Shown here piece by piece: positions 16,656 through 46,121 of a stretch of DNA of 64,000 bases (positions are counted from its first letter, which is position 1; each line of letters begins with the position of its first letter). The stretch is from a virus, in IMG/VR virus record IMGVR_UViG_3300030390_000715, positions 88,754 through 152,753 of that record; one strand, 5' to 3'. The notes under the pieces were generated by a model that worked only from the letters and a program-made list of their open reading frames with translations, had not been told where the DNA came from and ran no database searches. The position numbers and the translations under genes are program-made.

Positions 16656-18565
16656 TGAGCAATGACGTATTAAAGAGTGAAGTCGAAGCAAGTTTTAAAT
16701 CAATCGACGAAACTCCTATTATCGAAAACTCTAAAAGAGCGATTGAAAGCCAAAAGAATACTGCTGAAACAATAGCGGGTTCTATCGCAGGTCAAGTAGA
16801 AGGTGGCATTCAATCCATCACCTCTAAAATAGACGAATATAGCGATAAAGTAAACACTGTATCTACAGAAGGATTACTCGACGATGGACTTCAAAGTCTC
16901 AAGGGTATGGGTACCGATGCAGTCAATACAGCAATATCAGGCTTTTTAGGTTCAAGCGGATCTTCTGTTAAAGTTGTATTTACTGATCCAGATTCTAACG
17001 GTATGGTATACCCACTATCATCATCGCTCGAAGCGTCCGGTGGTGCGAGTGCTACGGTATCAGCGATACTTCAGTTGATCACAGGACTAGGAGTAGGACC
17101 AGGCAGTCTTCAGAAAGTAGTTGCTGATGCAAGCCCCGCTGGACTAATCAGCGCAACAAAATCCATTACTGGTAAATTAGGCGCATTCGATGGGGCTGAA
17201 GCTATCGCTTCGCTCACAGAAAATGCTATCAACTCAGTCAAGATCGATCTAGAAAATGCCACAACGGGCAGTCTGGCTAACATCAAAGATAATAGCGGTA
17301 ATGTTCTTAATACACTTAATAAGACAATAACGAATATTCCTTCGACTTGGGATTCTGACGGCATTGTCACTTCAGTAACATCTATTACGGGTGTCGCTAA
17401 AAATAACGATAGCGCATTCAATCTGTCTATGACTGATCTTGATAATTCTATTGTCGACCTTAAAGGTGCAGTGACTAAGAGCCAAGACATCTCAGCTAAT
17501 TCCGCAGGACAAGTTTCTGATCTAACTAATCTATCAGGTGGCAAAGACGGCACGTCCGTAAAGTCTGATCTTGATAATGGCGCGAATTACTATAGAGCTA
17601 ATTTCTCAAAGAGTGGCGACGAGTATAGAAGTGTTGTTAAAAGAAGAGTGGCTAAAGATTCTAAGAGAGGAATTATACAAGGTATTAGTCAAGACGCTCT
17701 CAGCGACATTAGGAGTCGTTTCACAGCATTCAATTCACCCTTCACGCTGTCTGATGTTGTTATCAACGAAGTAATCAATTTATCGCAAGGAGATGTCGCT
17801 GATTTTTCGCAAGCAGTTAAACTCCTACATGATCAAACTGGTAAAGAGTATGATGTTGTTAAATCATTCTTACAGACAATCGATACGACAATCCATGCGG
17901 CAACAAGACCCGTATTATCTGATATAGTCTTTGCGGAGCCTTATGTTATTGGTTCATATCAAAAGAATTGGAATAAAGGCGCAGGCGATCCAGTCTTTCC
18001 GTACATATCTTCGCTCGAAGAATTACGGGCTGAAATCAAGAATATACAGCGAGAAGTTACTGAAGTTGTTGTGCATTGGACCGAGACCCATACAGATAAG
18101 AATATAGGTTCTGAAGAAGTCAATAAATATCATTTAGTCGCTGGGTTAGATGGAATTGGCTATCACTACATTATTCGTCGCGATGGTTCTCTTCAGAGAG
18201 GTCGACCCATTAATATACAAGGTCAACACTCACCAAAGAACTTTCACGATCTCCGTAGTTTATCGATAGCGTTTGTTGGTGGAATTAACGTACCGAGCGG
18301 TACACCCAATAGTGAAAACTTCTTGTCCGCACAGTCGTTGACCCGTAGTCAGTTTAACACATTCGATCATGTCTGTCGAGCAATATATAATGCTATTCCT
18401 GGTATTCAAATTGTAGGTCATATCGATATAGATGATGATGAATTAGATCCAGGCTTTGATGTTATATCCTACGCACAATCGAACTTTGGATTAAAGAGCG
18501 AGTTCAAGACTCCGCTCAAGCAACAACCCTTTACAGCTAAAGAGTTATTAACAAATGACGAATAA
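16655..18565 (+). CDS. Baseplate protein with N-acetylmuramoyl-L-alanine amidase domain
   Basis: A 636-residue protein. Residues 1-330 are low-complexity, Ser/Gly/Asp-rich and repetitive, probably a structural or coiled region. Residues about 465-625 form a zinc amidase of the T7-lysozyme/PGRP type. Features are VVVHWTETHTD (first His, about 473), GIGYHYIIRRDGSLQRGRP, GQHSPKNFHDLRSLSIAFVG, VGHIDIDDDELDPGF (second His about 588, with Asp of DPGF replacing Cys). It cuts between muramic acid and L-alanine. It follows the lysozyme and precedes the spike, so it is probably mounted on the tail tip. All zinc ligands seem present. Confidence 0.85.
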   Translation: MSNDVLKSEVEASFKSIDETPIIENSKRAIESQKNTAETIAGSIAGQVEGGIQSITSKIDEYSDKVNTVSTEGLLDDGLQSLKGMGTDAVNTAISGFLGSSGSSVKVVFTDPDSNGMVYPLSSSLEASGGASATVSAILQLITGLGVGPGSLQKVVADASPAGLISATKSITGKLGAFDGAEAIASLTENAINSVKIDLENATTGSLANIKDNSGNVLNTLNKTITNIPSTWDSDGIVTSVTSITGVAKNNDSAFNLSMTDLDNSIVDLKGAVTKSQDISANSAGQVSDLTNLSGGKDGTSVKSDLDNGANYYRANFSKSGDEYRSVVKRRVAKDSKRGIIQGISQDALSDIRSRFTAFNSPFTLSDVVINEVINLSQGDVADFSQAVKLLHDQTGKEYDVVKSFLQTIDTTIHAATRPVLSDIVFAEPYVIGSYQKNWNKGAGDPVFPYISSLEELRAEIKNIQREVTEVVVHWTETHTDKNIGSEEVNKYHLVAGLDGIGYHYIIRRDGSLQRGRPINIQGQHSPKNFHDLRSLSIAFVGGINVPSGTPNSENFLSAQSLTRSQFNTFDHVCRAIYNAIPGIQIVGHIDIDDDELDPGFDVISYAQSNFGLKSEFKTPLKQQPFTAKELLTNDE

Positions 18566-20009
18566 AGTAGATAATTTAGACGCACGAGAAAAAAATCTAG
18601 GTGTTGGTCAAGAAGATACCGTCGGTGTGCCAAAGGATGGATTCAGTGATCCGTCAGGCGAATTTCCTAAGCGAGAATATTTCTTTAGCTCAAGTGTAAA
18701 CAAAGCCGCTAAAGGCGAGAAAGTTAATAATCTTGATATTGGTGGTGGTGATCTAGGTGTATCGATTGATATGCCTAGCCAAGAGCCTTCGATGTATCCT
18801 CACAACGATACTAACGAAACTCCTTCGGGTCATGTTATCGAGTATGACGATACGCCCGGGGGTGAAAGAATATTATTAAAGCACAGAACAGGCGCTGGTG
18901 TAGAAATGAGGGCTGACGGCACAGTAGTTGTCGTGTCTAAAAATAAAAGAATTGAAGTGACAGGCGGTGATCATACCGCAATTATTGAAGGGGATGGTGA
19001 TCTTGTTTATAAAGGTAGTCTTAATTTACGTGTTAGTGGTGATTATAATGTCGACGTGGGTGGCGATTATAAAGTCACTGTCGCCGGTGACACCAAAGAA
19101 AGTATAAAAGGTCGGCACAACAAAACTGTCGGTAAAGATCAGAACTATACGATACGAGGTTCGAGAGGAGCGCAAGTGGTAGGTATGAACACCGAAACAC
19201 TATTAGGCTCTACTAATGTATTAGTTAAAGGTGATCAGAAAAATTATGTTGAAGGTGATATTGAGATGTTATCGTCTAACAATATTACACAAACTGCTGT
19301 CAACGAGTGGGTCGTCGCGTCGAGCGTGGCAGGTATTAGCGCAAGACATATTAGCGTTATCGGTCATAAAGGAACAATAGGTGGTTCAACAATTGACTAT
19401 TACGGCAAGACGTATGGTGGTATGCCAGGAGGTCTAACTAATCTTGCGACATTCTACGGAACATTGGTCGGTAAAGCTACAGAAGCGAATCATGCAGATT
19501 ATGCTATTAAATCATCTATCGCAGAATATGCAAGTGGTGCGGCTAAGGCGTTAGTAGCCGCTAAAGAAAAGCCAACTACAATTTCATCCCCTAATCCAAT
19601 ACCCGGAATTATGACATATCTTCCTTTAGCACCCACAGCACCTTTACCAAACCCCGCTATAGTAGAGATGCAGTTATCGACAAGCAACTACGGAATCAGA
19701 AATGTTGAGGTCGACCCTTTACTTAAAGAAAAGATAAGTAAGTCGGATGACTACAAAGAATTGTTTAATGAAGATCCTTCGATTCATGAGATAAGATCGA
19801 AGCTAAGAGATACAGCGCATTTTAACAATAATGCATTTACGAGCTTTCTTGTAAGTGAAAATAAACTTAACAGAGATTTTAAAAAGAACATTCCTAGAAA
19901 CATTGGTAGATCAGCAAATAAGAAAGGAACAATTCATTTCGGAACTACTACATTAGGAAACAATCCCGCTGACACGAGAAGCAAAAGATTTAAGGTGAAC
20001 ACAAAATGA
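18555..20009 (+). CDS. Central spike protein (gp5 C-domain, VgrG-like beta-helix)
   Basis: A 484-residue protein. Residues about 160-260 carry the regular octapeptide repeats of a triple-stranded beta-helix: GDYNVDVGGDYKVTVAGDT, then KGRHNKTVGKDQNYTIRG, as in T4 gp5C and VgrG needles. The front part (about 90-150: HVIEYDDTPGGERILLKHRTG) is the typical VgrG/gp5 spike connection. The C-terminal 150 residues are polar and Pro-rich. It trimerises to puncture the outer membrane. It overlaps the amidase gene by 11 nt. No tip metal motif was identified. Confidence 0.87.
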   Translation: MTNKVDNLDAREKNLGVGQEDTVGVPKDGFSDPSGEFPKREYFFSSSVNKAAKGEKVNNLDIGGGDLGVSIDMPSQEPSMYPHNDTNETPSGHVIEYDDTPGGERILLKHRTGAGVEMRADGTVVVVSKNKRIEVTGGDHTAIIEGDGDLVYKGSLNLRVSGDYNVDVGGDYKVTVAGDTKESIKGRHNKTVGKDQNYTIRGSRGAQVVGMNTETLLGSTNVLVKGDQKNYVEGDIEMLSSNNITQTAVNEWVVASSVAGISARHISVIGHKGTIGGSTIDYYGKTYGGMPGGLTNLATFYGTLVGKATEANHADYAIKSSIAEYASGAAKALVAAKEKPTTISSPNPIPGIMTYLPLAPTAPLPNPAIVEMQLSTSNYGIRNVEVDPLLKEKISKSDDYKELFNEDPSIHEIRSKLRDTAHFNNNAFTSFLVSENKLNRDFKKNIPRNIGRSANKKGTIHFGTTTLGNNPADTRSKRFKVNTK

Positions 20010-30006: not shown

Positions 30007-30239
30007 TCAATTATCGTCACATAAAAGTCGAGGGGGTTCCTAGTTTAGTTCGAGATGTTGAAACAAACGCTATACTAAGTGTAGATGCAAAAGCAATCGA
30101 ACTAGCTAGAACCCAAAAAAGAATACGAGCCGCAAAGAAAATTGAACATACAGCCTTAGAGAATAAGGTCGATAGTCTCCAAAAAGACATAGAGGATATT
30201 AAAAAAATACTAGAATTGTTAGTCTCTGATAACGTATAA
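30003..30239 (+). CDS. Small conserved protein with coiled coil
   Basis: A 78-residue protein that overlaps the stop of the large wedge gene by 4 nt (ATGA). Residues 1-40 (INYRHIKVEGVPSLVRDVET) are a short beta unit. Residues 40-78 form a coiled coil with heptad hydrophobics (LENKVDSLQKDIEDIKKILE). Small proteins of this layout accompany baseplate genes in marine T4-likes and are probably virion components. Its stop codon is embedded in the next late promoter. Confidence 0.75.
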   Translation: MINYRHIKVEGVPSLVRDVETNAILSVDAKAIELARTQKRIRAAKKIEHTALENKVDSLQKDIEDIKKILELLVSDNV

Positions 30240-30242
30240 ATA
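30235..30242 (+). promoter_or_regulatory. T4-type late promoter for the tyrosine-ladder operon
   Basis: A perfect TATAAATA covering the TAA stop of the previous gene, 35 bases before the ATG at 30278. The next late promoter is only at 39654, so four genes probably share this transcript. Confidence 0.85.
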
Positions 30243-30277: not shown

Positions 30278-33200
30278 ATGTCTCTACCCTTAAAACATCT
30301 TGGCAATGGCGCGCTTCAAGAATTAGCTTCCGTTGATCTTGATTCCATTGCTTATAGGGCGGGTGTTCATCTAGGTAAAATGGGCGCAGAAGATGCTTCG
30401 GCTCTAACTACAACCTCTACTGCTAACACTCTAGTCGGTTCAATCGATGATACGTTTTACGAAACCACTATAGGTTCTACTCCAGGAACAACATGGACAG
30501 TTAATCTAGCTGTCGATCATATATCGGACACAACTACCGGTGTTCATACTGCGACATTCACACAATTAAACGAATTTCCCTCTCCTATCTTTGTTGGCGA
30601 TACTGTAAGAGTTATTGTTACAGGTGATGCTCAGACAGGTTTTGAAGAGATCGCTCACGAATTGTCCGAGTCTGGTACAGCACTCTTCAGTACAGAAAGT
30701 GTAACAACAACACCGTCCGCGTCTATCATCGAAGATACTCGCGTCGAATGGGAAGATTTTGTTTATGGTCTGACAGGCACATTTATCTCACAGTTTGAGG
30801 TTAAGGTGACTCAACCTGGAGTAATAAACTTTTCGTTGAATGTGAGTACCACTGACTTAAACAACACAACTAATAATACCGCTAACGCGTCTATATCGTT
30901 TGCGACTGTCGATGTTGAAGAAACATTACCGCCAGAAGCGACTAGCGTTCAATATGACTTATATCAATCCAATGCTGGTATTGTTACGCAAAGCGTACAC
31001 AAAAAGAACCCTGTTTTCTGGACCAGATATCTAACGCCAAATGGTATCAAAGAAATGTCTGATGCAGAACTTGATTCGTTCTGCGAAAAATTAGTCATAC
31101 GAATTATGGCAAACGAATTGCCAGGCACATACAGATTAAATGCTAACAGCCCAGGCTCTGATTGGGTTCAATTTGTTAGCAACGTATTTACAGATACACG
31201 CGCAGACGGATCGACTACTGACTACTCGATATGGCTAAGACAGTCAGGTACTGCGCCTACTCAAGTTAATCTTGTATATCCGAAGCGCGTCTTGGGTGAA
31301 TACGCAGGATTAAATGAGTATACAGACAATCAAGTCGAATTTACTTTTGGCGAAAGAGTTAAGAAAGCCATTGCCACTACCGGTATTGGTAAATATGTAC
31401 TAAGATCATCTACTCAAGGTGCGCCTACTGAAACAGGAACGTGGGTTGCTCGTGGTAGTGCGATTGATACTAGACTAGAATATTATTATGACCCAGGTTA
31501 TGTTTCAACACCTGCATATTCAAGTCAATATGTAGAAGATTATGCAACCGACTATGTTGACACGTATGAAGGTAATTATGAGCCTACATATACTGGCGAT
31601 TTCACTGCTGACTTTGAAGGTACATACGAAGCGGAATATCTAGGCAACTATACGCCAGATTATGACACAGGATATGATGCCGAATACACTCAAAACTTTG
31701 AAGCTGATTATCAAAGCCAGTATGAGCAAGAATATCTTGGGGACTACGTTAGCCAATATGTACCCACATACGACGGTGCTATTTTTAACGAACAGTACAG
31801 TACGGATTATCTAGCCGCTGATTTTATAGGCGACTACATTAGCGATTATACAGCCGACGCATACGATTCAGGATATACTTCGGACTATCAAATTGATTAC
31901 ATTGGTTCATACACTGGTCAATACACTAGTAACTATGACAGCGTATATGAAGATATCAATTACGCTACAGATTACAGCGTAGATTATACAGGGCAATATG
32001 AGTCTGTATATGCGACCACGTATGAGAATGACTACACTAGTAATTATAGTTCCCAGTACACTTCTCAATATTCGGATGAATACGAGTCTGTATATGAAGA
32101 TATAGAATACTTGACCGATTACATCTCGGTCTATAATAGCGACTATACTACTGACTATCTAAGCGATTATGATAATACAGCATATAGTACGATTTTCGAA
32201 ACTACCTACGCCACAAATTATTCTACTGGCTTTGAATCTACCTTTATAGGCACGTATGATGACACTGACTATGCGGCTACCTTTTCTGGCGATTATGTCT
32301 CTAATTATGATAACTCATTCGTAAGTCCGGAGTATCAGAGTGTTTACGAGGGTAGCCCATACTCTGTAGACTTTGTTGGAGATTACACATCCACTTATGA
32401 TTCTTCGTTCGTACAGGATTTTGTAGGCACGTATGATGACACTGACTATGTGACTAACTTCGTCGGTGATTATGCTAGTCAATATATCAGTCAGTTTAGC
32501 CAAGACTTTGCTGTCGATTATAATACAGACGATTACGTGGTAGACTTTGTTGGTGATTATACGTCATCTTACGATGCTTCGTTCGCACAGGACTTCGTTG
32601 GAAATTATAGTGACACTGACTATGCGACTACCTTCGTCGGTGATTATGCTAGTCAATATATCAATCAGTTTAGTCAGAACTTTGCGGCAGTGTTTGATGG
32701 TTCTCAATATACTACTGTTTTTGAATCGAACTATGTGGGTGATTATGCAGGATCATTCGAAGGCAACTTCAACAACATATTCGAAGGTGCAAGTTATGTT
32801 TCTACCTTTGCCAACTCTTATGCTAGTCAATATACGTCACAGTTCAGTCAAGCATTCTCGGCTAACTATGATAACACAACATACACTGGTGACTTTAATG
32901 AGACTTATTCTGGCGATTACATTGGTCTGTATAGCGCGTCTTTCGCAGGCAATTATGAGCGAACTACATATGAAACGCAATTTAGCGCGTCATACACCGG
33001 CAACTATGTGGGTCTTTTCTCACAGACTTTCTTAGGAACATATGACAGTCAAGGATACACTGCTGACTTTACAGCAAACTATACTGGCGACTACAGCGGT
33101 ACGTTCGGAACTACGTTTCTTGGAAATTATGATAGTCAACAATTTAACGCTATCTTCGAGAGTACTTACACTGGTGATTATGACGGACAATTTAGTGCTA

Positions 33201-36200
33201 CGTTTATCGGTGAATACGATAGAGTAAACTACAACACAAACTTCGTAGGCGATTACGTCGGTGATTATAGCGGAGCATTTAGTGCTACGTTTGTAGGCAA
33301 TTACGAAAGATTGACGTACCAAGGCGAGTATGTTTCTACGTACACTGGTGATTATACCGGAACATTTAATGCCAACTTTAACGCTACTTACGATGGAGCT
33401 AATTACGCCTCTCAATATACTGGCGGTTATACTGGCGCTCCGTCTGAAACCTTTAGTGCTAACTTTATAGGCGAATACCAGCGAATTGATTACACTAGCC
33501 AATATACTGGTCAATACGTATCACAGATAAGCGAATCGTTCGGTGCTTCATATACGGGTGTCTACGAAAGAACCAATTACACTTCTGTTTACACTGGTGG
33601 TTATACTGGACAAGTAAACGAAAACGAGGATAGCACTAACGAAGAGTCGTTCGCTCGTGACACTTACGTCTCACAATACACTGGCGGATACACTGGTGGT
33701 TATGCAGGGCTATACGAACGCGCAGTGAATGAATCGTTTTCAGGTGCCTCATTCACTGGTGATTATACAGGGCAGTATGTTGGTCAAGTTGGCGAAACCA
33801 TAATTGATAATATCGATGAATCGTTCAATGTGAACTATACAGGCGAATATACAGGTCAGTATGTTGGTCAAGTTGGCGAAACCATAGGCGATGCTATCAA
33901 CGAATCATTCAATGTAAATTACACTGGTGATTATACAGGGCAGTATGTTGGTCAAGTTGGTGAAACCGAGCAACAAACATTTACAGCAACTTTTAACTCT
34001 GCTAATAACTACAATACGCAATATACAGGGCAGTATATTGGTCAAGTAACCGAGAATGAAAGTACAACGGAACAACAATCTTATACAGGCGCATATACAG
34101 GCGATTACACAGGTCAGTATGTTGGTCAAGTAAGTGAGACAGAACAAACAGCTATCAACGAAGGTTTTGTTACCACATATATTGGAACATATACTGGTGG
34201 TTATGAACGCGCACAAACAGAAAATGAAGACCAAACACAATCGACCACATACACGGGCGGTTATGTACGCGCACAAAACACTACTAATCAAGATACGGTG
34301 ACTGATGCCGTAGGGGAAGTTTTCAATGGAAACTTCCAAGGAAACTACGTTAGTACCTCTACAACTTTTTACAATGGACCAAATGCTCATACAACAAGTA
34401 CGATGGTTGCTGACGAATATGCTGATCTAAATGATTACAACCTTTCGGGTACAGCCGGTTATTCCTCTGTTTCTTCTACCCTTGGTGGTAGTTTCAGCCC
34501 AACTTCACTTAATCTTGGCATGGGATCTGTAAGGGCTCTATTTCACAACTGGACTACGATTTTTACTTCTGGTGTTGGTGTTAAAACATCGCAAGGTTTA
34601 ACGCTTCAACTCAACGCTGGTAGTAATCCCACAAACTGGCAATCGATGCACCTTGTAGCACCCGGTGGCGCGGTTACGATTGTCAATAGAACGTCTATGT
34701 CTTATACGCTGTCAGGTGGAATTGCGACTTTCTCTATATCTTCCTCGGTTGCCCCCGGACCCGTCTTCTTTGGTCAAAATGAATCTTGGACTGTTAAGTT
34801 TATTAATCCCTTTGGCAACACAGCGGGATATGCCGGTGGAGGTGGCAGTTCAACTTTCATAGGAGATTACGTAAGTTCATACATAGGCTCTTATTTAGGC
34901 GCATACACGGGCTCATACACAGGGCAATATACAGGAACAGTGAACGAGAATTTCACGGGTGATTATGTCGGGCAGTATTCGGGTCAATATGTTGGTGTTG
35001 TTCAAGAGGGCATAGATGAAGGCTTTGCGTCTACATACACTGGTCAATACACTGGTGGCTATACAGGTTTATACGAACGAGCGCAGAACCAGTCGTTTGC
35101 TACGGTTCAATCATCGACATATACCGGTGGCTATACAGGGCAATATACAGGCTTATACGAACGAGCGCAGAATGAAAACTTCGCGGTCAACTATAACAGT
35201 TCATACATAGGCAACTACACTGGTGGTTATGCAGGGCTATATGAACGAGCGCAGAGTGAAACTTTCGCGGCTGTTTATGCTGGAACGTACACAGGTCAAT
35301 ACACTGGTGGCTATTCAGGATTATATGAACGAGCGCAGAGTGAAACTTTCGCGGCTGTCTATGCCGGCACATACACTGGACAATACTCTGGTGGTTATGC
35401 AGGGCTATATGAACGCGCAGTGAATGAAACTTTCAGTGTTGCTTACGCGGCTGATTATATTGGTCAGTATGTTGGTCAAATAGCTGAAGTAGAACAGACT
35501 ACAGAACAAGAAACATTCTCCGCGTCTTATATTGGAAATTACATTGGTGGTTATACTGGTCAGTACTTAGGGCAATATGAGCGTACACAACAACAAAACT
35601 TTTCCGCTAACTACTTAGCCTCGTTTGAAGGTGCATTTAACGCAACATATGTGGGGCTATACGAACGCGCTATTGATGAAACATTTAGTGCTAACTACCT
35701 CGGAACATTCGCGGGCGATTATGTCTCACAATATACTGGAGCATACGAATCTGTAGATAGCGAAACATTTACGGCTAACTTCACTGGCTCTTATAATAGC
35801 ACATATTTGTCATCGTATGACGGTACCTTTGTTGCTAACTTTAATCAAACATTCATTGACCAATACACCGGAACATTCCTTGGTGATTATCTTTCGCAGT
35901 ATACAGGCGGATTCTCAGAGTCCTTCGCCGGAGACTACGCTTCTGATTATCTCGGAACATTCGCGGGCGATTATCTTTCGCAGTACACGGGCGTCTTTAC
36001 ACAAAACTTTGTAGGCACATACACTTCGGGCTATACAAGAACATTCGACGGCGACTACGTTTCACAATACGAAGGTAACTTCTCGGCTGTATACACAGGA
36101 AACTTTACTGCACAATACACCGGAACATTCGACGGCAACTACGTTTCACAATATGAAGGTAACTTCTCGGCTAATTTTGGAGCGCAGTTTAGCGCACAGT

Positions 36201-37720
36201 ATCTTGGAACATTCATAGGTGATTATGCTTCGAGCTACGAAGGTGCGTTTGGTGTCTCATATTCTGGAAACTTTACTGAAGACTACGTTGACACGTATAC
36301 ATCCCAGTATACATCCCAGTATACATCTGATTTTGAAGCCATTTACGTCGGTGATTTTGAAGGAGCTTATCAAGCTTCCTTTGAAGGTAACTTTGCGGCT
36401 CAATACGAAGGATCTTTTGCGCAGACCTTCACAGGATCATACGATACACAGTACACTGGATCTTACATATCACAGTATTTGTCGACATACGAATCAGCTT
36501 TCACAGCTATATTCGGTAGTGATTACACGTCCGAGTATCTAGGAACATTCGACGGTAACTATGTCTCAGCCTATGCCAATGTGTTCAGCCAGACATTCTC
36601 GGGCAATTATGTTTCTAGTTATCTCGGAACATTCACTGGTCAATATACGGGTGAGTACGAGTCAGACTATACAAGCTCATTCGCAGGAGATTATGCATCC
36701 GAGTATCTTGGAACATTCGACGGTAACTATGTCTCAGCCTATGCCAATGTGTTCAGCCAGACATTCTCGGGCAATTATGTAACTGATTATATTGATTCTT
36801 ATCAGTCTGCTTATATTACTACCTATGACAGTACATTCACATCTAACTTTAGTGGTGAATACACGTCCGAGTATCTCGGAACATTCGATGGTGATTATAC
36901 TTCGGAATATGCTAGTATATACCTGAACGAATATGTCGGTACTTACACATCTGAATACACTGACACTTACACTGGCAACTTCTTAGATACATACGAAGGA
37001 ACTTTCGCTGATGCGTATGAAACTGGTTATACTGGCACATATGCTTCCGAGTATCAAACCAATTACGGATCGGAGTTTATAAGTGAATATGCTAGTGATT
37101 ATACCACTGATTACAATACCGATTATGCTACGCAATTCGAAGGCACGTTCATTGGTCAATATGAGAATGAGTACCTAGGCACTTACGAAAGCACCTTCAT
37201 AGAGAATTACGAGTCGACTGAATCATACATTGCATATGGTACTTCCTATGCGTCCGAATATGTCTCTGACTACAATCCTACATACGAAGGTGATTTCTTA
37301 GGAAGCTATGAGCCTAGCTACGAGACAACTTACAATTCAGAATATACAGGCACATATGACGCTGACGCTGTGGATGAAAGTTACGATTCATTGTATGTTC
37401 GTGATCTTTATTCTTCTGATTATACGACTGATTATATCGAACAAGTTTACGTGTCTGGTTATGTGACTAGCTACGAAGGTCTTGATAGCGAAGAGTCATA
37501 CGATACGACATATGATGGCGCTGTTTACACCTCGAGCTATGCCTCTGACTATCAAGATGATGACATTATCGAGAGTTACGATGACACGGCTTACACCGCA
37601 CTCTATAATACCGATTACTCGATTGACTATATAACTGATACAGCATACGGTACTGGAGGACACTTACGAGACATTCCTGTATCGATTGAAACTTATACAT
37701 TATACGTGAGGGTAGCATGA
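30278..37720 (+). CDS. Giant tyrosine-ladder repeat protein, probable virion fibre
   Basis: A 2480-residue protein. Residues 1-405 are a non-repetitive attachment-like region that starts SLPLKHLGNGALQELASVDL. Residues about 405-1340 and 1530-2450 are an almost unbroken ladder with Tyr or Phe at every fourth position (for example DYVDTYEGNYEPTY; YTGQYVGQVGET). The other residues are small or polar (Gly, Thr, Ser, Asp, Asn, Gln) and there is almost no Lys, Cys or Met. An island at about 1345-1525 (SSTLGGSFSPTSLNLGMGSV) is a normal globular beta domain. The last 24 residues (GGHLRDIPVSIETYTLYVRV) form a C-terminal cap. I recall similar YTGDYTG-type proteins in marine T4-likes. Probably a long appendage; function not known. 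It overlaps the next gene by 4 nt. Confidence 0.85.
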   Translation: MSLPLKHLGNGALQELASVDLDSIAYRAGVHLGKMGAEDASALTTTSTANTLVGSIDDTFYETTIGSTPGTTWTVNLAVDHISDTTTGVHTATFTQLNEFPSPIFVGDTVRVIVTGDAQTGFEEIAHELSESGTALFSTESVTTTPSASIIEDTRVEWEDFVYGLTGTFISQFEVKVTQPGVINFSLNVSTTDLNNTTNNTANASISFATVDVEETLPPEATSVQYDLYQSNAGIVTQSVHKKNPVFWTRYLTPNGIKEMSDAELDSFCEKLVIRIMANELPGTYRLNANSPGSDWVQFVSNVFTDTRADGSTTDYSIWLRQSGTAPTQVNLVYPKRVLGEYAGLNEYTDNQVEFTFGERVKKAIATTGIGKYVLRSSTQGAPTETGTWVARGSAIDTRLEYYYDPGYVSTPAYSSQYVEDYATDYVDTYEGNYEPTYTGDFTADFEGTYEAEYLGNYTPDYDTGYDAEYTQNFEADYQSQYEQEYLGDYVSQYVPTYDGAIFNEQYSTDYLAADFIGDYISDYTADAYDSGYTSDYQIDYIGSYTGQYTSNYDSVYEDINYATDYSVDYTGQYESVYATTYENDYTSNYSSQYTSQYSDEYESVYEDIEYLTDYISVYNSDYTTDYLSDYDNTAYSTIFETTYATNYSTGFESTFIGTYDDTDYAATFSGDYVSNYDNSFVSPEYQSVYEGSPYSVDFVGDYTSTYDSSFVQDFVGTYDDTDYVTNFVGDYASQYISQFSQDFAVDYNTDDYVVDFVGDYTSSYDASFAQDFVGNYSDTDYATTFVGDYASQYINQFSQNFAAVFDGSQYTTVFESNYVGDYAGSFEGNFNNIFEGASYVSTFANSYASQYTSQFSQAFSANYDNTTYTGDFNETYSGDYIGLYSASFAGNYERTTYETQFSASYTGNYVGLFSQTFLGTYDSQGYTADFTANYTGDYSGTFGTTFLGNYDSQQFNAIFESTYTGDYDGQFSATFIGEYDRVNYNTNFVGDYVGDYSGAFSATFVGNYERLTYQGEYVSTYTGDYTGTFNANFNATYDGANYASQYTGGYTGAPSETFSANFIGEYQRIDYTSQYTGQYVSQISESFGASYTGVYERTNYTSVYTGGYTGQVNENEDSTNEESFARDTYVSQYTGGYTGGYAGLYERAVNESFSGASFTGDYTGQYVGQVGETIIDNIDESFNVNYTGEYTGQYVGQVGETIGDAINESFNVNYTGDYTGQYVGQVGETEQQTFTATFNSANNYNTQYTGQYIGQVTENESTTEQQSYTGAYTGDYTGQYVGQVSETEQTAINEGFVTTYIGTYTGGYERAQTENEDQTQSTTYTGGYVRAQNTTNQDTVTDAVGEVFNGNFQGNYVSTSTTFYNGPNAHTTSTMVADEYADLNDYNLSGTAGYSSVSSTLGGSFSPTSLNLGMGSVRALFHNWTTIFTSGVGVKTSQGLTLQLNAGSNPTNWQSMHLVAPGGAVTIVNRTSMSYTLSGGIATFSISSSVAPGPVFFGQNESWTVKFINPFGNTAGYAGGGGSSTFIGDYVSSYIGSYLGAYTGSYTGQYTGTVNENFTGDYVGQYSGQYVGVVQEGIDEGFASTYTGQYTGGYTGLYERAQNQSFATVQSSTYTGGYTGQYTGLYERAQNENFAVNYNSSYIGNYTGGYAGLYERAQSETFAAVYAGTYTGQYTGGYSGLYERAQSETFAAVYAGTYTGQYSGGYAGLYERAVNETFSVAYAADYIGQYVGQIAEVEQTTEQETFSASYIGNYIGGYTGQYLGQYERTQQQNFSANYLASFEGAFNATYVGLYERAIDETFSANYLGTFAGDYVSQYTGAYESVDSETFTANFTGSYNSTYLSSYDGTFVANFNQTFIDQYTGTFLGDYLSQYTGGFSESFAGDYASDYLGTFAGDYLSQYTGVFTQNFVGTYTSGYTRTFDGDYVSQYEGNFSAVYTGNFTAQYTGTFDGNYVSQYEGNFSANFGAQFSAQYLGTFIGDYASSYEGAFGVSYSGNFTEDYVDTYTSQYTSQYTSDFEAIYVGDFEGAYQASFEGNFAAQYEGSFAQTFTGSYDTQYTGSYISQYLSTYESAFTAIFGSDYTSEYLGTFDGNYVSAYANVFSQTFSGNYVSSYLGTFTGQYTGEYESDYTSSFAGDYASEYLGTFDGNYVSAYANVFSQTFSGNYVTDYIDSYQSAYITTYDSTFTSNFSGEYTSEYLGTFDGDYTSEYASIYLNEYVGTYTSEYTDTYTGNFLDTYEGTFADAYETGYTGTYASEYQTNYGSEFISEYASDYTTDYNTDYATQFEGTFIGQYENEYLGTYESTFIENYESTESYIAYGTSYASEYVSDYNPTYEGDFLGSYEPSYETTYNSEYTGTYDADAVDESYDSLYVRDLYSSDYTTDYIEQVYVSGYVTSYEGLDSEESYDTTYDGAVYTSSYASDYQDDDIIESYDDTAYTALYNTDYSIDYITDTAYGTGGHLRDIPVSIETYTLYVRVA
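31490..34300 (+). repeat. First tyrosine-ladder repeat block
   Basis: Degenerate in-frame repeats with aromatic codons (TAT/TAC/TTT/TTC) every 12 bases. Longer near-identical units occur, for example at about 32400-32500 and 32577-32675, with the shared phrase GDYASQYISQFSQ-like. Unequal recombination is the likely cause. Confidence 0.9.
34855..37650 (+). repeat. Second tyrosine-ladder repeat block
   Basis: Same 12-base aromatic period as the first block. An 83-base unit at 36530-36612 recurs at 36698-36780, 168 bases apart, with one mismatch. A shorter unit encoding GLYERAQSETFAAVYAGTY recurs at about 35240-35300 and 35325-35380. Confidence 0.9.
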
Positions 37721-38166
37721 GTTTACAAGTAGAATATTTAGATAACGCATACTGGGAAAATAAAGATAAGACCCAGCTAAAATGCATTCGATTGAAGCCC
37801 GTTGAAGGCGGAAAGGGTGGTCGCAAGAAAGATGTCTTATTATTAAATAAAGGTGATCCAGAATATGACATTGTAGTGTCTAGGTGGGGTGTTCCTCATA
37901 TCGATAAAAACACTCAAGAACGCGCTGACTCTAAGGATAAAAAAGATCGAGAGAATCGCGCAGTCCACGAACAGCGCAAAAAATCTGCTGAGTTAGAGCA
38001 ACTATTCAATGCTAAACTTCAGACGAGTGAAATACCTGAAATCAAAAATTCTACAAACAAAGCTATGAGATCGAAGATAAGACGCGCAAAGAGTGTGATC
38101 GAAATGCAAGCCCTAGCCGCTCTGCTGATTGGAATGGAATTAGGCTACATTGAGGTTAAAAAATGA
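37717..38166 (+). CDS. Conserved hypothetical protein in the fibre operon
   Basis: A 149-residue basic protein. The first half is beta-like (SLQVEYLDNAYWENKDKTQL, KGGRKKDVLLLNKGDPEYD). The second half is a long charged helix (TQERADSKDKKDRENRAVHE, QRKKSAELEQLF). It could be a chaperone or an attachment protein for the fibre; this is inference from place and the coiled-coil-like helix. It overlaps both neighbours by 4 nt, implying coupled translation. Confidence 0.75.
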   Translation: MSLQVEYLDNAYWENKDKTQLKCIRLKPVEGGKGGRKKDVLLLNKGDPEYDIVVSRWGVPHIDKNTQERADSKDKKDRENRAVHEQRKKSAELEQLFNAKLQTSEIPEIKNSTNKAMRSKIRRAKSVIEMQALAALLIGMELGYIEVKK

Positions 38167-38969
38167 GAGATGTGATTGACACAGTAAAAAAATGGCTACG
38201 CATTACTCCACCTACGACCCCACCTACGATTGGATATGTTATTGTTGCATCTCGAAAGAAGTTCTTTTATGTTTCTGCAATTAATCTTATGGAATCAATC
38301 AAAGATCATTATCCCGAAGCTAAGATCACTCTAGTCGTTGAAGAAAGATTCCTTGATGGTAACGAGAAGATAGCGGATAACATTATTTTCTGCGATGATC
38401 ATGCACGAGCTAAGTTGATAGGAATGGCTAAATCACCTTATGATATTACGTTTTATGTCGATGCAGATATAGAATGCGAACACGAAGATATCTCTACAAT
38501 CTTTGATAAACTCGATGGACATGATATCATGTTCACTGGTCTACCTGCTGATAGACATTACTGTTACGCAGAAGTATTCTTTGACGGTGCAACAAAGGCT
38601 GACGGTACTAAAGCAGGGTTCGAACTTTGCGGAGGTGTCTGTCTTTATGATATGAGAAAGCCACTTGTTCGTGAATTCATGAACGATTGGTATAATCTAA
38701 CTGTAGCTCAGTATGCTAGACTCTGGTGGCCAAGGAACGAAGATGGCACTGAAGACCTCAAAAATTATCCTGCTACACTAAAAAGATGGGACCAATTCTC
38801 ACTTTGGTGGTTAACTAACAAAGAGCCAAAATACAAAGACCTCAAAGTAGGTATATTAGAAGATGATGCTCGATGGAATTACTACTCTAAGTATAAGTAC
38901 GACCATAATAAAGAGCCTGTAGTATTGAGACACTACTCCTCTTCAGGCGCTAAATCTCTGGAGTTTTAA
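38163..38969 (+). CDS. GT-A-type glycosyltransferase
   Basis: A 268-residue enzyme likely to transfer a sugar from a nucleotide-sugar. After a Pro/Thr-rich front (ITPPTTPPTIGYVIVAS) come Rossmann-like elements, the metal-binding DxD motif in YVDADIE (about residues 98-104), GGVCLYDMRK and a substrate-site segment WDQFSLWWLTNKEPKYKDL. This pattern suggests glycosyltransferase family 8-like enzymes. It has no membrane segment. It sits in the same operon as the giant repeat protein, which makes that protein a possible acceptor. Confidence 0.75.
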   Translation: MRDVIDTVKKWLRITPPTTPPTIGYVIVASRKKFFYVSAINLMESIKDHYPEAKITLVVEERFLDGNEKIADNIIFCDDHARAKLIGMAKSPYDITFYVDADIECEHEDISTIFDKLDGHDIMFTGLPADRHYCYAEVFFDGATKADGTKAGFELCGGVCLYDMRKPLVREFMNDWYNLTVAQYARLWWPRNEDGTEDLKNYPATLKRWDQFSLWWLTNKEPKYKDLKVGILEDDARWNYYSKYKYDHNKEPVVLRHYSSSGAKSLEF

Positions 38970-38972
38970 ACT

Positions 38973-39647
38973 ATGATGAAAAATATACCTTTAAACGACT
39001 TTGCAATAGAATTGTTAGACGAAGCATTGTGGTTTACAAAAGAAGAAAATTACACCGCTGTAATACCTACGAAGATGAACGATCTCGATAAAGCTGATTA
39101 TTATACGGGTGATGAATATTTCGAGAAAATAAAAGCGATGGGTAGTTCTCATGATGGATTTCCAGAATTCATCGCCTGTTATTCTTTTGGTCAAGGTATT
39201 AGATTCGATAATCATAATCCAAAAATTCAAAGGAAGATCGCTGAAGTAACCGAAAGACATAGTGCGTTAATAACTAATATTCAGACTACTTTCAATCTTA
39301 AAAAGAACGCTCTGTTTTCGATTTATCCTCCGGGTGGCTTTATCTCTTGGCATAATAATGCTAACGCGTCGGCTTATAACTTTATATTTACTTACAGCGA
39401 AACAGGTGATGGATGGTGGAAGCACTTGGATCCTGTTACTAAAGAAATGGTTCATATACCTGATGTTAAGGGATGGCAATGTAAAGCTGGACACTTCGGC
39501 TCATACGCTGACGGAGAAGACTCACTAGTATATCATGCCGCAAAGAATGGTAGTACAGGATTACGAATGACCATTGCGTTCACGTTAGATCGATCTGATA
39601 CGTCACTATCTCTTCAGGACTGGATAATAGAAGATATTCAAGCTTAG
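38973..39647 (+). CDS. 2OG/Fe(II) oxygenase-like protein
   Basis: A 224-residue protein. The C-terminal half resembles a double-stranded beta-helix dioxygenase: LFSIYPPGGFISWHNNANAS with a His near residue 126, SYADGEDSLVYHAAKNGSTG with a second His, and LRMTIAFTL with an Arg for the 2-oxoglutarate carboxylate. The first site reads HNN instead of HxD/E, so either the metal ligand differs or the enzyme is inactive. Related sequences occur in marine T4-likes. It follows the glycosyltransferase after 3 bases and ends just before a late promoter. Confidence 0.6.
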   Translation: MMKNIPLNDFAIELLDEALWFTKEENYTAVIPTKMNDLDKADYYTGDEYFEKIKAMGSSHDGFPEFIACYSFGQGIRFDNHNPKIQRKIAEVTERHSALITNIQTTFNLKKNALFSIYPPGGFISWHNNANASAYNFIFTYSETGDGWWKHLDPVTKEMVHIPDVKGWQCKAGHFGSYADGEDSLVYHAAKNGSTGLRMTIAFTLDRSDTSLSLQDWIIEDIQA

Positions 39648-39653
39648 GAATCG

Positions 39654-39661
39654 TATAAATA
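39654..39661 (+). promoter_or_regulatory. T4-type late promoter
   Basis: A perfect TATAAATA seven bases after the oxygenase-like gene and 33 bases before the next ATG. Confidence 0.85.
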
Positions 39662-39694: not shown

Positions 39695-40054
39695 ATGGCT
39701 ACGCATTACGAAGTCCTTCAAATAAATCAAGGCTCTGACACTTCGATAGAGTTGGAGCTTGTAAATGTGGACAATTCTAAAAAGGACTTGACAGGGTTTA
39801 GTGTTGAAGCTAAACTCAGTTCAAGCTATTCTCAGCCTGATTCTGATAAGACTAGTTTCTTGTCTATAATATCCTCTCCCTCTACAAGCGGTATCGTCAA
39901 TCTTTCGTTGACTAACGAGCAAACGAGCATACTTAATCCTAAGAAGCGTTTCGTCTATGATGTTGAGATATCACACGTTGATAGTGCTACGGGCAATACA
40001 ATTATCGAGAGGGTTCTAGAAGGTATCCTTACAGTAACTCCGGCGGTGACTTAA
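39695..40054 (+). CDS. Small Ig-like structural protein
   Basis: A 119-residue beta-sandwich-like protein (YEVLQINQGSDTSIELELVN, LTGFSVEAKLSS, RFVYDVEISHVDSATGNTII, VLEGILTVTP). It resembles the BppU N-domain/Ig-type proteins that bind fibre or baseplate parts in many phages. It is the first gene of a new late transcript and stands two bases before the next gene. A role as adaptor for the following fibre protein is inferred. Confidence 0.65.
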   Translation: MATHYEVLQINQGSDTSIELELVNVDNSKKDLTGFSVEAKLSSSYSQPDSDKTSFLSIISSPSTSGIVNLSLTNEQTSILNPKKRFVYDVEISHVDSATGNTIIERVLEGILTVTPAVT

Positions 40055-41189: not shown

Positions 41190-44100
41190 TTGTCAACCAC
41201 TAAATTACTAAATCGCAGAACTAATGTGCCCGGACAAGTACCCGGTATAACGGACATTGATCTTGGTGAAGTAGCGATTAATACACATCAAGGTAAAATG
41301 TATATCAAACGTGATAAGTTTGGTGTTGTTGATGTGGTCCAAGTGGGCGAAGATGCAGTAGAGAATGTATTCTATGTTTCTAAATCAGGTGAGTTCGGAA
41401 ACTCAGGAACATCATTGGGTGATTCGTTCAAAACATTAGACTCTGCTGTCAGTCTTATCACCACGCTCAAATCGTTTGCGTTCGATGAAGCTAAATGTAC
41501 AAGAGACTTTAATTTCATATTCGATGGTCTGTATAACGATATTGCATTCGGAACAAACTATAATGCTGTTACATCGGGTCATTCTTACCAAAGAGCTAAC
41601 GCTAATAAAGTTATTACAGATCAATTAGTTCCGACTCGTGTATCATTCAATCAGGCTCGTGGTGCTATTGGTTCGGTTGATGAAGTGAAAGCTAGTACGG
41701 GAGAAAGCGGAGCATTATATAGAAACAACAAACACTGGTCAGAGATTATTGACATTCTTGTTAACGGTAAACAAAGTACCGAGCAAGCTCATGATGTATT
41801 GGAGTTTCCAGCTCCTCTTGTTCTCACAACACCTGATGCAGACGATGCGGCTATAATTCTACAGAACAATCGCGAATGGTTGAAAGATGAATTGGTCGTA
41901 TACATTTCACAAAACTATCCTGCACTATCATACGATAGAGTTAAGTGCGAAAGAGATACTGGTTATATCATTGATGCAATAATCACTGATCTGATGACAG
42001 GCTCTAATTACAATTCGGTCACTGCGGGTCTTGCGTATAAACGATACCTTGCGTTACCCGATTATCAATCAGCCTCGACTATTGATATCTGGACATTCCT
42101 ACGCGATAGAATGTTAGAATTGTCAATTACAGAAGCATCTAAGTCTAAGATAATCGCTAGTGTAGCTGAAATCGCTGACATCATGGTCAATGACGTACAA
42201 GCGGCTGATATTATTGTCACTCCTGATACGCCAGCAACTACGACCAATAGAAGAAATGCGGCTAGTCAGATTAAAAATAACAAGCAATTGTTAATCGACC
42301 AAACAGTATTGTATCTTGCGCAGACGTATCCTACAATTCAGAATTATGACTCTACTAAATGTGCCCGAGATGTTGGTTACATAGTTGACGCTATAACACT
42401 GGATCTTATGTTAGGTACGAACTATAACACAGTTACTTCAGGTCTTGCATATGTTCGTGTAAATGCTATTCCTGCTGGACAAGTTGAGTTTACAAAAGGT
42501 GCTTGGATAATTCTTCGAGATGCCATAAACGCTCTGTCAATAAGCACAGATTCGCAGGACAAAGTAACTGCAAGTATAGCAGAGATAAACGACATCATTG
42601 ATAATGGCGCTACCTCTGCTGATACGCTGATAATGCCAGACTCTATTAACACTTCGGTGACTAGAAGAAACGCGGCTGATCAGCTTAAAAATAATAACAC
42701 ATTTATCATCGATGAAGTAATAAGGAATATATCAGAAAACAGTCCTGCACTGACAATCGATAGAGCGAAATGTTCAAGAGATGTTGGATTAATCGTTGAA
42801 GCGATCAGCCGAGATTTACTGTTTGGTACAAACTATAATAGTATTACTGCTGGTCTAGCCTATACGCGAAACAATGCTATTCCCGCGGACACTGTAGAAG
42901 GTACTGTCGCGGTGATAACTGCTATAGGAACAATAACTGACGGGCTCGCTATCGACGCTTCTACAAAAACAGCCTTGAAAACGAGCGTCAAGACTGTCAC
43001 GGATATTATCACTTCAGGAATATCTATCAACGATATAGTATTCCCAACAACAATAAACTCTAGTGTTAATGAAGAGCGGGCTCATTCTCAAATTCAACTT
43101 AATAAAACTTTGTTGATCGACAACTACATAGCGTATATTACAGCTAACTATCCGTCTTTAGTCTATGACACTGCTAGATGCAGGCGAGATGTTGGATTTA
43201 TTCTTGACGGTTTATCTCATGACATATTATATGATGGTAACACAGCTTCACGGAATGTTGCTTTTTCGTATTTCGTCGACGGAGTTTCTGTATTACCTGC
43301 GGGTCAAGTAACAGCGATATTAGCCGCATACGCAAATTTAAACGCTGATCTCGCATTGGTTTTAGCAGAGACTTTGCCTAACCAAGATGTCACTGGTTCA
43401 AGCCAATCAGGTCTTTTGCAAGTAACGACTCGGTTAGAGACTCTTCTTAATATTACGATCAACGCAATAACCGCAGGCAATATAGCAAGTGTTCCTCTCG
43501 TAGAAAATGTCGATACTACTGCTATAGCAGAGCCGATGGTAAAAGATTACGCGGCTGTCGTTTCTTCTTTAGCATTTATTCAAACAAGCGCGATAGCTGT
43601 TTACGATCTTGTTGGTCCGGTTCATTATAATCGTACTAAATGTCGAAGAGACTTAACCTTCATACTAGAAGCTTTACAGCACGACATTCTATATGGTGGT
43701 AACTTCGGTTCGTTTAATATAGCGCGATCATATTTTGTTGATGGTGTATCTCAGCTCGGAAGTTCTGATGAAATTACAGCCTCCATTAGCGCCTATCTAT
43801 TTTTGAAGACTGTAGTGTCTTCGGTCGTACAAGAGACCTATACGGGTCAGGATACGTCTGGTGGACTCGCTGGTGCTACTGAAGCCACAACTCTTGATAC
43901 ACTGATAGACATTATAATCGATGTAGTTAATGCTGGCAACATTGATTCGATTGCCACAAGAGTTTTGCCAGATTTAACTGGAATAACAGCTACAGATTAT
44001 AACACAATTAATAATGCAATAGTAGCATTAAAAGCGGAAGTTATTGAGTATGCAGATTGGTACGGACCTGTCACATATGATCGCGTCAAGTGTAAGCGAG

Positions 44101-46121
44101 ACTTAGGATTCATTCTTGACGGCTTGATTCATGACTTGACATACTTCGGTAATGTCGGATCGGTGACTAACGCAAGATCATATTTCGTGGGTGCTGTGGC
44201 TCAACTTGGTAGCGCCGACGAGGTAACATTCACATCAAACGCTTTGACATACCTCGATCTTGCTATTGGGCAAGTCATTCTCAAAACATTCACAGGTCAA
44301 GATACTGTCGCTGATGCAGGCACTGCGGCAGAGGGAGTTGTCGTTAATGACCTGATCTCTATTATCGAAGCACCAATATTAGCGGGTACGATTTCAGGAT
44401 TGAGAGCTACGGTATTGCCAGATTTCACTGGCATTGCTTCGAGTACTACAGTCGACTACGGATTGATTCTAGCACAAAAAGCGACGATCACTAGTCAAGC
44501 ATTGACACATGTTGATCTAAACGGTTCAACGACTTACGATAAAGTCAGATGTCGCAGAGATACAGGCTTTATAGTTGACGCTCTGACACATGACGTATTG
44601 TATGGCGGAACACACGGTACGACTATTAATGCCCGAGCTTATTATGTTGGAGCTGTCGCTCAGTTACCGGCTGATCAACAAGCGGCTACTCAAGCGACAT
44701 ACGAACACCTGAAAACAATAGTGGGACAGCTTATCACTAACACACTGACGAGCAATCTATCCACAGGTGCTGATCTAACTGGCAATGCAAGCCAATATGC
44801 TACTGTATCAGAGAAGACTACGCTAGACTCCCTTATCACGATAATAGTTGATGTTATAGCCGCAGGCAATCTCGACGCTCTACCGGCAGTGGTACAGCCT
44901 AATCTAATTAGTCGAGGTGTTTCTGTATCATTAAGAAATGCCGTCACAGCTACTAAAGCTATTCAGGATTTCTTGATACTTCAGTCGGTTAAGTCTGCGA
45001 AGAATACTGGTGATACAACAATCTTTTTGAAGTCTGGCGATTACACGATTAATAATCCTGTTAAGTTACCTCCTAAGACTGCGATTGTCGGTGATAACTT
45101 GCGAACCACTACAGTTAGACCTAAGAGTGTGGATTCTGATCTCTTCTACGTAGACAACGGCACTTTCATAAAAGACTTGACCTTTCGAGATCATCAAAAC
45201 TTAGCGGCTTGTGTTGCATTCGACCCTAGTGTTGATAGCTCAAGAGCCGGACCATTCATTGTACAATCACCTTATGTTCAAAACTGTACTTCTATTACTA
45301 ACGACGGTGTTGGTATGAGAATTGACGGTTCTAAATGTTCGGGTTTGAAGTCGATGGTATCTGATGCATTCACTCAGTACAACGCGGCAGGTATTGGTGT
45401 TCATCTACTAAATCGCGGTTTTGCTCAGTTGGTTTCTATATTCACAATTTCTACTGAAACCTCTATTCTCGCTGAAACTGGTGGTCAATGTTCTATCACT
45501 AACAGTAACGCTTCGTTCGGTGATTTCGGGCTAGTCGCAAGAGGTACTTCTGGTATTCTATATGACGGGCAATTAGACTCGGATTATCCTATATTCACTA
45601 CTTCACTGCGTTTGAGAAATGTTATAAATAGAGACAGTGACGATTATATCACTGCATTCGGTGCTTCTAAACTGCCTAATTATGGCGATACAATGAAGTT
45701 TGATTCCGAAGAGTATTACTACACTGTAGTTGGTGTGGATTCGGTTGATGTAGATAAGTATGATATAACATTCGAGCCACCTTTGAATTCGTTGAAAGCT
45801 AAAGATCAGAACATGACCTTTAGACAACGATCATTGATTGCTTCAAGTTCGCACACGTTTGAATATGTTGGTTCGGGAACAAACACGTTCACAGCTATAC
45901 CTCAGAATGGTGGTATACCTAAGCCCGAGCGTGAAGTGGTATTTGACTCTGCAACGAATGCAGGTTTAGTTGTATTCACTTCGACGGATCAGATGGGTGA
46001 CTTTAGAATCGGATCAGAACTAACTATTAAAAGACAGGAAGGTAGAATCGTAGGTGAGACATTCGAAAGATCACTATATGCTATTCTAACTCCATATATT
46101 CTAGCACTAGAAGGTAACTAA
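41190..46121 (+). CDS. Giant appendage protein: eight Cys-containing helical repeats plus beta-helix
   Basis: A 1643-residue protein that starts with TTG (41190) nine bases after AGGAG. The N-terminus (RRTNVPGQVPGITDIDLGEV, GKMYIKRD) is a tail-fibre-attachment type. Then come eight repeats of a helical motif of the form YDxxKCxRDxGFIxDAxxxD followed by LxxGxN. Copies 1-4 end GTNYNxVTxGLAYxR; copies 5-8 end GGNxGSxxxARSYFVxGVxQL. They lie about residues 100-1120, spaced roughly 100-190 residues. Residues about 1265-1640 form a pectate-lyase-type beta-helix (GDYTINNPVKLPPKTAIVGD; DGVGMRIDGSKCSG). It may bind or cut a surface polysaccharide, but no catalytic residues were identified. Confidence 0.82.
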   Translation: MSTTKLLNRRTNVPGQVPGITDIDLGEVAINTHQGKMYIKRDKFGVVDVVQVGEDAVENVFYVSKSGEFGNSGTSLGDSFKTLDSAVSLITTLKSFAFDEAKCTRDFNFIFDGLYNDIAFGTNYNAVTSGHSYQRANANKVITDQLVPTRVSFNQARGAIGSVDEVKASTGESGALYRNNKHWSEIIDILVNGKQSTEQAHDVLEFPAPLVLTTPDADDAAIILQNNREWLKDELVVYISQNYPALSYDRVKCERDTGYIIDAIITDLMTGSNYNSVTAGLAYKRYLALPDYQSASTIDIWTFLRDRMLELSITEASKSKIIASVAEIADIMVNDVQAADIIVTPDTPATTTNRRNAASQIKNNKQLLIDQTVLYLAQTYPTIQNYDSTKCARDVGYIVDAITLDLMLGTNYNTVTSGLAYVRVNAIPAGQVEFTKGAWIILRDAINALSISTDSQDKVTASIAEINDIIDNGATSADTLIMPDSINTSVTRRNAADQLKNNNTFIIDEVIRNISENSPALTIDRAKCSRDVGLIVEAISRDLLFGTNYNSITAGLAYTRNNAIPADTVEGTVAVITAIGTITDGLAIDASTKTALKTSVKTVTDIITSGISINDIVFPTTINSSVNEERAHSQIQLNKTLLIDNYIAYITANYPSLVYDTARCRRDVGFILDGLSHDILYDGNTASRNVAFSYFVDGVSVLPAGQVTAILAAYANLNADLALVLAETLPNQDVTGSSQSGLLQVTTRLETLLNITINAITAGNIASVPLVENVDTTAIAEPMVKDYAAVVSSLAFIQTSAIAVYDLVGPVHYNRTKCRRDLTFILEALQHDILYGGNFGSFNIARSYFVDGVSQLGSSDEITASISAYLFLKTVVSSVVQETYTGQDTSGGLAGATEATTLDTLIDIIIDVVNAGNIDSIATRVLPDLTGITATDYNTINNAIVALKAEVIEYADWYGPVTYDRVKCKRDLGFILDGLIHDLTYFGNVGSVTNARSYFVGAVAQLGSADEVTFTSNALTYLDLAIGQVILKTFTGQDTVADAGTAAEGVVVNDLISIIEAPILAGTISGLRATVLPDFTGIASSTTVDYGLILAQKATITSQALTHVDLNGSTTYDKVRCRRDTGFIVDALTHDVLYGGTHGTTINARAYYVGAVAQLPADQQAATQATYEHLKTIVGQLITNTLTSNLSTGADLTGNASQYATVSEKTTLDSLITIIVDVIAAGNLDALPAVVQPNLISRGVSVSLRNAVTATKAIQDFLILQSVKSAKNTGDTTIFLKSGDYTINNPVKLPPKTAIVGDNLRTTTVRPKSVDSDLFYVDNGTFIKDLTFRDHQNLAACVAFDPSVDSSRAGPFIVQSPYVQNCTSITNDGVGMRIDGSKCSGLKSMVSDAFTQYNAAGIGVHLLNRGFAQLVSIFTISTETSILAETGGQCSITNSNASFGDFGLVARGTSGILYDGQLDSDYPIFTTSLRLRNVINRDSDDYITAFGASKLPNYGDTMKFDSEEYYYTVVGVDSVDVDKYDITFEPPLNSLKAKDQNMTFRQRSLIASSSHTFEYVGSGTNTFTAIPQNGGIPKPEREVVFDSATNAGLVVFTSTDQMGDFRIGSELTIKRQEGRIVGETFERSLYAILTPYILALEGN

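Follow-up and report, generated by a model that had tools for sequence, protein, structure and literature searches.

A predicted glycosyltransferase and an oxygenase-fold protein are co-inherited with a family of aromatic-repeat fibre-like proteins in T4-type marine phages

Introduction

That a virus can decorate its own fibre is already a known idea. In mimivirus, the enzyme L230 hydroxylates and glucosylates collagen-like proteins (PMC9614988), and R699 adds one more glucose (PMC9546862). Mycobacteriophages O-glycosylate their own capsid or tail (Freeman et al. 2023, cited in PMC11652166). In pelagimyophages, GT8 genes lie near the tail fibres in a non-syntenic island and have been assigned to modification of the host O-chain, and an aspartyl/asparaginyl hydroxylase is reported to be core to these phages (PMC7029224).

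Here, we describe a four-gene locus in a 152,753-bp uncultured virus, analyzed within a 64-kb stretch of DNA that spans positions 88754–152753 of the record (hereafter, the window). As in the mimivirus system, where the modification has been shown, the virus encodes a repetitive, extended protein together with a 2OG-type hydroxylase, here predicted, and a glycosyltransferase. The mimivirus target is Lys in Gly-X-Y collagen, however, whereas our locus encodes an aromatic repeat in which Lys and Pro are almost absent, and L230 is one fused protein, whereas the enzymes described here are separate and belong to a bacteriophage. As in mycobacteriophages, the glycosyltransferase is phage-encoded, there acting experimentally on the phage's own virion proteins and here predicted to do so; the mycobacteriophage system, as described in the citing article, includes no oxygenase, aromatic-repeat fibre family or fixed C-terminal motif. 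With the pelagimyophage host-recognition cluster, the locus shares its T4-like region and the presence of GT8-type genes near tail fibres, but its gene order is fixed and its glycosyltransferase is tied to one fibre family. That enzyme resembles GT8 enzymes such as glycogenin and LgtC in predicted fold, DxD motif and an invariant late His, but has no sequence-family match. The locus differs from known fibre decorators in its fibre family, its separate enzymes, its fixed C-terminal tail and the HxN site of its oxygenase-fold protein. We consider it probable, if some way from certain, that the four genes together serve as a dedicated cassette for the maturation of a new fibre family in T4-type marine phages, with enzymes that would modify the fibre.

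Results

Four genes form one late unit in the tail-fibre island

The portal, sheath and baseplate genes in the window indicate that it belongs to a T4-type marine myovirus. Its portal protein is closest to that of phage C48C1 (Kyanoviridae, 64%), followed by those of the OM43 phage Melnitz and Pelagibacter phage Mosig (about 51%). The locus consists of four consecutive genes on the + strand, encoding an aromatic-repeat fibre-like protein of 2480 aa (30278–37720), a 149-aa Lys/Arg/Glu-rich protein (37717–38166), a protein of predicted GT8/GT24 glycosyltransferase fold (GT; 38163–38969) and a protein of predicted 2OG/Fe(II)-oxygenase fold (OX; 38973–39647). The first three genes are joined by ATGA overlaps (at 37717 and at 38163), and 3 bases lie between GT and OX, exactly as in the original prediction. 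Upstream lie genes for a DUF4815 structural protein and a PHROG 473 virion protein, and the gene that follows the cassette (39695–40054) matches a PHROG named L-shaped tail fibre assembly. The cassette thus lies between the baseplate wedge/DUF4815 genes and the sheath stabiliser, the position of the tail-fibre island in T4-like genomes; in Melnitz-3, the DUF4815 and PHROG 473 homologues are kept and lead into tail-fibre genes, and the cassette is absent. Together, the upstream flank, the Melnitz-3 fibre genes and the L-shaped-fibre neighbor place the cassette in the tail-fibre island, and from this position we infer that the repeat protein is present in virions.

The four genes had also been predicted to form one late unit, with the next late promoter only after them, and the promoter positions in the window and its relatives agree. 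The T4-type late promoter motif TATAAATA is found on the + strand upstream of the fibre gene (30235–30242) and again at 39654–39661, where it ends the unit and serves the gene at 39695, with none in between. By count alone, its excess in the window is weak (10 occurrences against 6.0 expected, with at least 10 in 9 of 100 shuffles); the layout is confirmed because relatives place the motif in the gap between OX and the next gene (77 of 78 distinct loci) and not inside the unit, with no occurrence in the gap between the fibre and small genes (0 of 80) or between the small gene and GT (0 of 85). The motif lies no more than 120 bp upstream of the fibre gene in 26 of the 54 testable relatives. One further match in the window, at 45623–45630, falls within a 1643-aa gene (41190–46121) and is probably due to chance.

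Some relatives (L002:13444–13537, L057:9459–9561 and similar loci) have a gap of about 100 bp between the fibre and small genes, in which a strong hairpin is accompanied by the conserved element TATATAC. The window has no such gap, the two genes overlapping there. In at least one C48C1-like relative, a T-rich tail comes after the hairpin, and the presence of a hairpin in this gap means that the enzymes may be expressed at a lower level than the fibre in C48C1-like phages.

The first gene defines an undescribed family of repeat proteins

The window protein begins with a conserved, non-repeat N-terminal domain (residues 1 to about 408; 30278–31501, + strand). A first repeat block (31502–34342) and a second (34841–37600) are separated by a non-repeat insert at about residues 1356–1521 (34343–34840), delimited by sequence reading and periodicity, and the last 11 residues form the C-terminal motif IETYTLYVRVA (37685–37717), all on the same strand. 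The repeat unit is [YF]-x-[GS]-x; its last position most often holds D, T, Q or N, and its aromatic position holds Tyr 294 times and Phe 130 times (residues 391–2400). The body contains 353 Y/F pairs spaced four residues apart, as compared with 89.6 in 1000 shuffles (SD 7.5, maximum 112). The predicted ladder of Tyr or Phe at every fourth residue is therefore real and far beyond chance in the body, but it does not run over all 2480 residues, because the N-terminal domain, the insert and the C-terminal motif are non-repeat. The whole protein matched no Pfam family, and Pfam, PHROG and PDB searches gave no sequence match to known tail-fibre families.

Searches of IMG/VR with GT, OX and the C-terminal motif returned more than 100 related loci, and the family is now known from over 150 uncultured contigs in IMG/VR and from a single annotated phage, C48C1. 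The C48C1 homologue has 3347 aa, is annotated only as "hypothetical protein", carries TETYTLYVRVA at its C-terminus and lies upstream of the same three genes. This is an undescribed phage protein family, defined by its N-terminal domain (about 270 aa in most relatives), which had no match in PHROG or in a profile search of the PDB with the family alignment; no relevant publication turned up in literature searches for the tail motif, for phage C48C1 or for phage fibres with aromatic repeats. Members vary greatly in length and in repeat, and what they have in common is the N-terminal domain, an aromatic-x-Gly/Arg unit and, nearly always, the ETYTLYVR tail.

Across 132 distinct bodies, N or D precedes 49% of aromatics (3.8- and 3.5-fold enriched) and G or R occupies position +2 of 71%; [N/D]-[Y/F]-x-[G/R] is the most frequent core of the repeat, and [ND][YF]xG occurs 4240 times in family bodies versus 279 in shuffles. 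Ser and Thr are abundant in nearly all bodies, median Lys and Pro contents are 0.2% and 0.8% (132 bodies), and collagen-type Gly-X-Y with Pro/Lys was not found in them. The tail is conserved far better than the body. Its consensus, ETYTLYVR[T/V]A, ends at the last residues of the protein; leaving out the TYTLY core, which served as the search pattern, Glu stands before it in 136 and Arg after it in 148 of 152 distinct tails, and in 143 of 152 distinct relatives the protein stops exactly four residues beyond the motif's last Tyr.

The non-repeat inserts differ between family members. Non-repeat segments of the STDT[ST]TNQQF[FW]EPR type are shared by the repeat bodies of two distant members, P0001 (about residues 1990–2060) and L016, a resemblance that suggests exchange of inserted domains within the family. 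Next to one full-length member, a 63-aa ORF (L277:1142–1333, − strand) fuses the start of the N-terminal domain straight to the C-terminal tail without a repeat body.

Predicted folds of the accompanying proteins

An AlphaFold2 model of GT, built from the family alignment (pLDDT 93), matched UGGT, LgtC, glycogenin, LARGE1 and COLGALT1 in Foldseek (probability 1.00, E about 1e-8 to 1e-7), with E 3e-8 to 1e-7 and a TM of about 0.5 for UGGT, LgtC and glycogenin. These enzymes mostly act on proteins or glycans. The model thus predicts a GT-A fold of the LgtC/glycogenin type (GT8/GT24). The DxD motif, D100-A-D102 (38460–38468, + strand), and H257 are invariant in 50 of 50 relatives, and we take D100, D102 and H257 to be the equivalents of the LgtC metal ligands. 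By sequence, GT had no Pfam, PHROG or NCBIfam assignment, with only weak GT2 Pfam matches in 21 of 50 members, and a profile search of PDB sequences returned nothing significant.

The presence of LgtC, a lipopolysaccharide galactosyltransferase, among the best fold matches would fit a GT that alters host lipopolysaccharide, for superinfection exclusion or receptor change, with a separate role for OX, and such a role has been proposed for pelagimyophage glycosyltransferases in the same host-recognition island (PMC7029224). An enzyme of the host surface would be expected to move independently, however, whereas GT, like the small gene, is single-copy and inside the cassette in every genome tested, accompanies the fibre and small genes at every locus, and lies within the late unit with no internal TATAAATA before it. 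We regard a host-surface role as quite unlikely.

For OX, the AlphaFold2 model (family alignment; pLDDT 96) gave top Foldseek matches that were all 2OG/Fe(II) oxygenases (probability 1.00, E 1.6e-5), in a loose superposition with a TM of only about 0.3–0.4. The best match was a prolyl hydroxylase; AspH was among the matches but was not the best. The modelled structure is that of the 2OG/Fe(II) double-stranded beta-helix fold, and the original reading of the two genes as a DxD glycosyltransferase and a 2OG/Fe(II)-oxygenase-like protein is thus supported for both at the level of the predicted fold. Profile searches for OX gave no Pfam, PHROG, NCBIfam or PDB-sequence match; a control search with Pfam PF05118 matched nowhere and was uninformative. 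In place of the usual HxD/E, OX has H127-N-N129 (39351–39359, + strand), the H and N of which are invariant in 63 of 63 relatives, and distal His188 and Arg198 are likewise invariant, giving HxN...H...R. The canonical HxD/E...H iron triad is replaced by HxN in all 63, so catalysis could differ or be lost. AspH has a two-His site without a carboxylate, HxG; at the +2 position, OX carries no carboxylate, but Asn in place of Gly.

The 149-aa protein had no family match in Pfam, PHROG or NCBIfam, and nothing significant in a PDB profile search. It is a candidate assembly factor or adaptor, which would be dedicated to the fibre and would perhaps bind its fixed tail.

The four genes are inherited together

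With the N-terminal domain as sole query, the small gene, GT and OX were found downstream in all 53 informative IMG/VR loci, that is, those with at least 2.5 kb of downstream sequence. In the opposite direction, GT as query recovered the small gene and OX in 79 of 79 distinct loci that had 1.5 kb or more of upstream sequence, and the aromatic protein in 78; the sole locus without it, L055, is a short contig. Neither direction yielded a case contrary to the earlier expectation that GT is lost whenever the repeat protein is lost. With the tail motif as query, 65 tagged ORFs directly precede small-GT-OX, 21 precede a second tagged ORF and then the small gene, and 5 directly precede OX; the 17 other cases have a long downstream ORF with the same N-terminal domain, mostly cut by the contig end. 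We found no clear exception, every resolved locus leading into the same genes. In some loci, the order is fibre-small-GT-second fibre-OX, so that the enzyme genes flank fibre genes. Gene order, late-unit layout and strict co-inheritance hold across diverse loci.

T4-like late regions are syntenic, which makes linkage alone weaker evidence than these counts suggest. The four genes could be neighbors for this reason only, with the enzymes acting on other virion proteins or sharing no substrate; in almost all loci, linkage extends to the next gene (39695), and the OX family has paralogues elsewhere in the genome. Yet relatives with the same upstream flank, such as Melnitz-3, miss all four genes together. 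Among 50,697 phage records searched by tblastn, C48C1 alone gave a match to any cassette protein at our thresholds; it encodes all four, in unchanged order. In a tree, moreover, the cassette OX form one lineage apart from the paralogues, except for one long-branch row. We consider mere synteny an improbable explanation.

These genomes contain two further OX lineages, one near capsid genes and one near replication genes. The former adjoins a second gp19-like tail-tube gene (L166:7505–8627, C48C1 record 17798–18920; L167; L169), so that two of the three OX lineages neighbor virion-protein genes, and in C48C1 its region comes directly after the major head protein gene; this second lineage may modify another virion protein. 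The third lineage (HTNWNANAY or HTNYDANAY; L171, L172, L173, L170 and L168) lies mostly near dnaB-like/thyX-like replication genes and is, we presume, possibly the "aspartyl/asparaginyl beta-hydroxylase" reported as pelagimyophage core. Bacterial OX homologues were confined to one contig (JAAXIF010000028.1, L292/L293), which was binned in a Sphingobacteriales MAG and carries the phage cassette and a second OX copy; it is probably a phage contig.

Discussion

We have not seen the fibre-like protein in the absence of one GT and one OX, with which it shares a late unit, and the best explanation is that these enzymes act on it. They would do so in trans, and the label "self-modifying" in the original prediction was the wrong word. 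Nothing that we found points to the receptor-masking fibre that was suggested as well. The first gene would encode a long, extended protein belonging to the tail-fibre region: behind an anchor-like N-terminal domain comes a repeat body with an aromatic every four to six residues and Gly or Arg after it, and the tail at the C-terminus is fixed. During late virion assembly, the GT8-fold enzyme would add sugar to this protein and the 2OG-fold OX would hydroxylate it.

The repeat body offers no constant acceptor residue: Tyr, Asn/Asp and the ladder spacing each have exceptions among members that have kept the enzymes. Judged by residue counts, Ser/Thr would be the most generally available sugar acceptor and Asn/Asp beside the aromatic the most plausible site of hydroxylation. 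Tyr, one of the modified residues originally predicted, is not the constant feature. It makes up only 6–13% of the aromatics in L151, L247, L258 and L118 (Phe 87–94%), and the four-residue spacing is all but missing from several bodies, although all of these loci have the same three genes downstream; this weakens the tyrosine idea, and we rejected Tyr as a general acceptor. Asn/Asp before the aromatic fails as a universal site in L123 (6% of aromatics) and L255 (10%), both of which have OX. Prolyl or lysyl hydroxylation of the body is disfavored by composition, Lys and Pro being nearly absent.

The persistence of the enzymes where the ladder is weak or Phe-only, together with a tail far better conserved than the body, could also mean that they modify the constant parts (the ETYTLYVR tail, the N-terminal domain or the small protein), for example in assembly licensing, and not the repeats. 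Three members (L045, L049 and L164) keep the enzymes though their tail is lost or changed, however, and glycosylation of one short tail would not require so conserved an enzyme pair, and we think it unlikely that the constant parts are the substrate. The fixed tail may be an alternative enzyme target or a recognition signal. A bolder and rather doubtful version is a phage counterpart of collagen maturation, in which OX would hydroxylate Asn/Asp or the aromatic in the [N/D]-[Y/F]-x-[G/R] repeats and GT would glycosylate the fibre, with the tail and the small protein marking the proteins to be decorated. Were it true, abundant marine viruses would carry a tag-directed, densely modified phage fibre.

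No member of this family of giant fibre-like proteins was seen apart from its predicted glycosyltransferase and oxygenase, and phage C48C1 and the fixed gene set offer directly testable material. If the modification is real, it would constitute a hydroxylation-plus-glycosylation pathway for a bacteriophage virion protein that would bear on how receptors are recognized, on fibre mechanics and on host defence.
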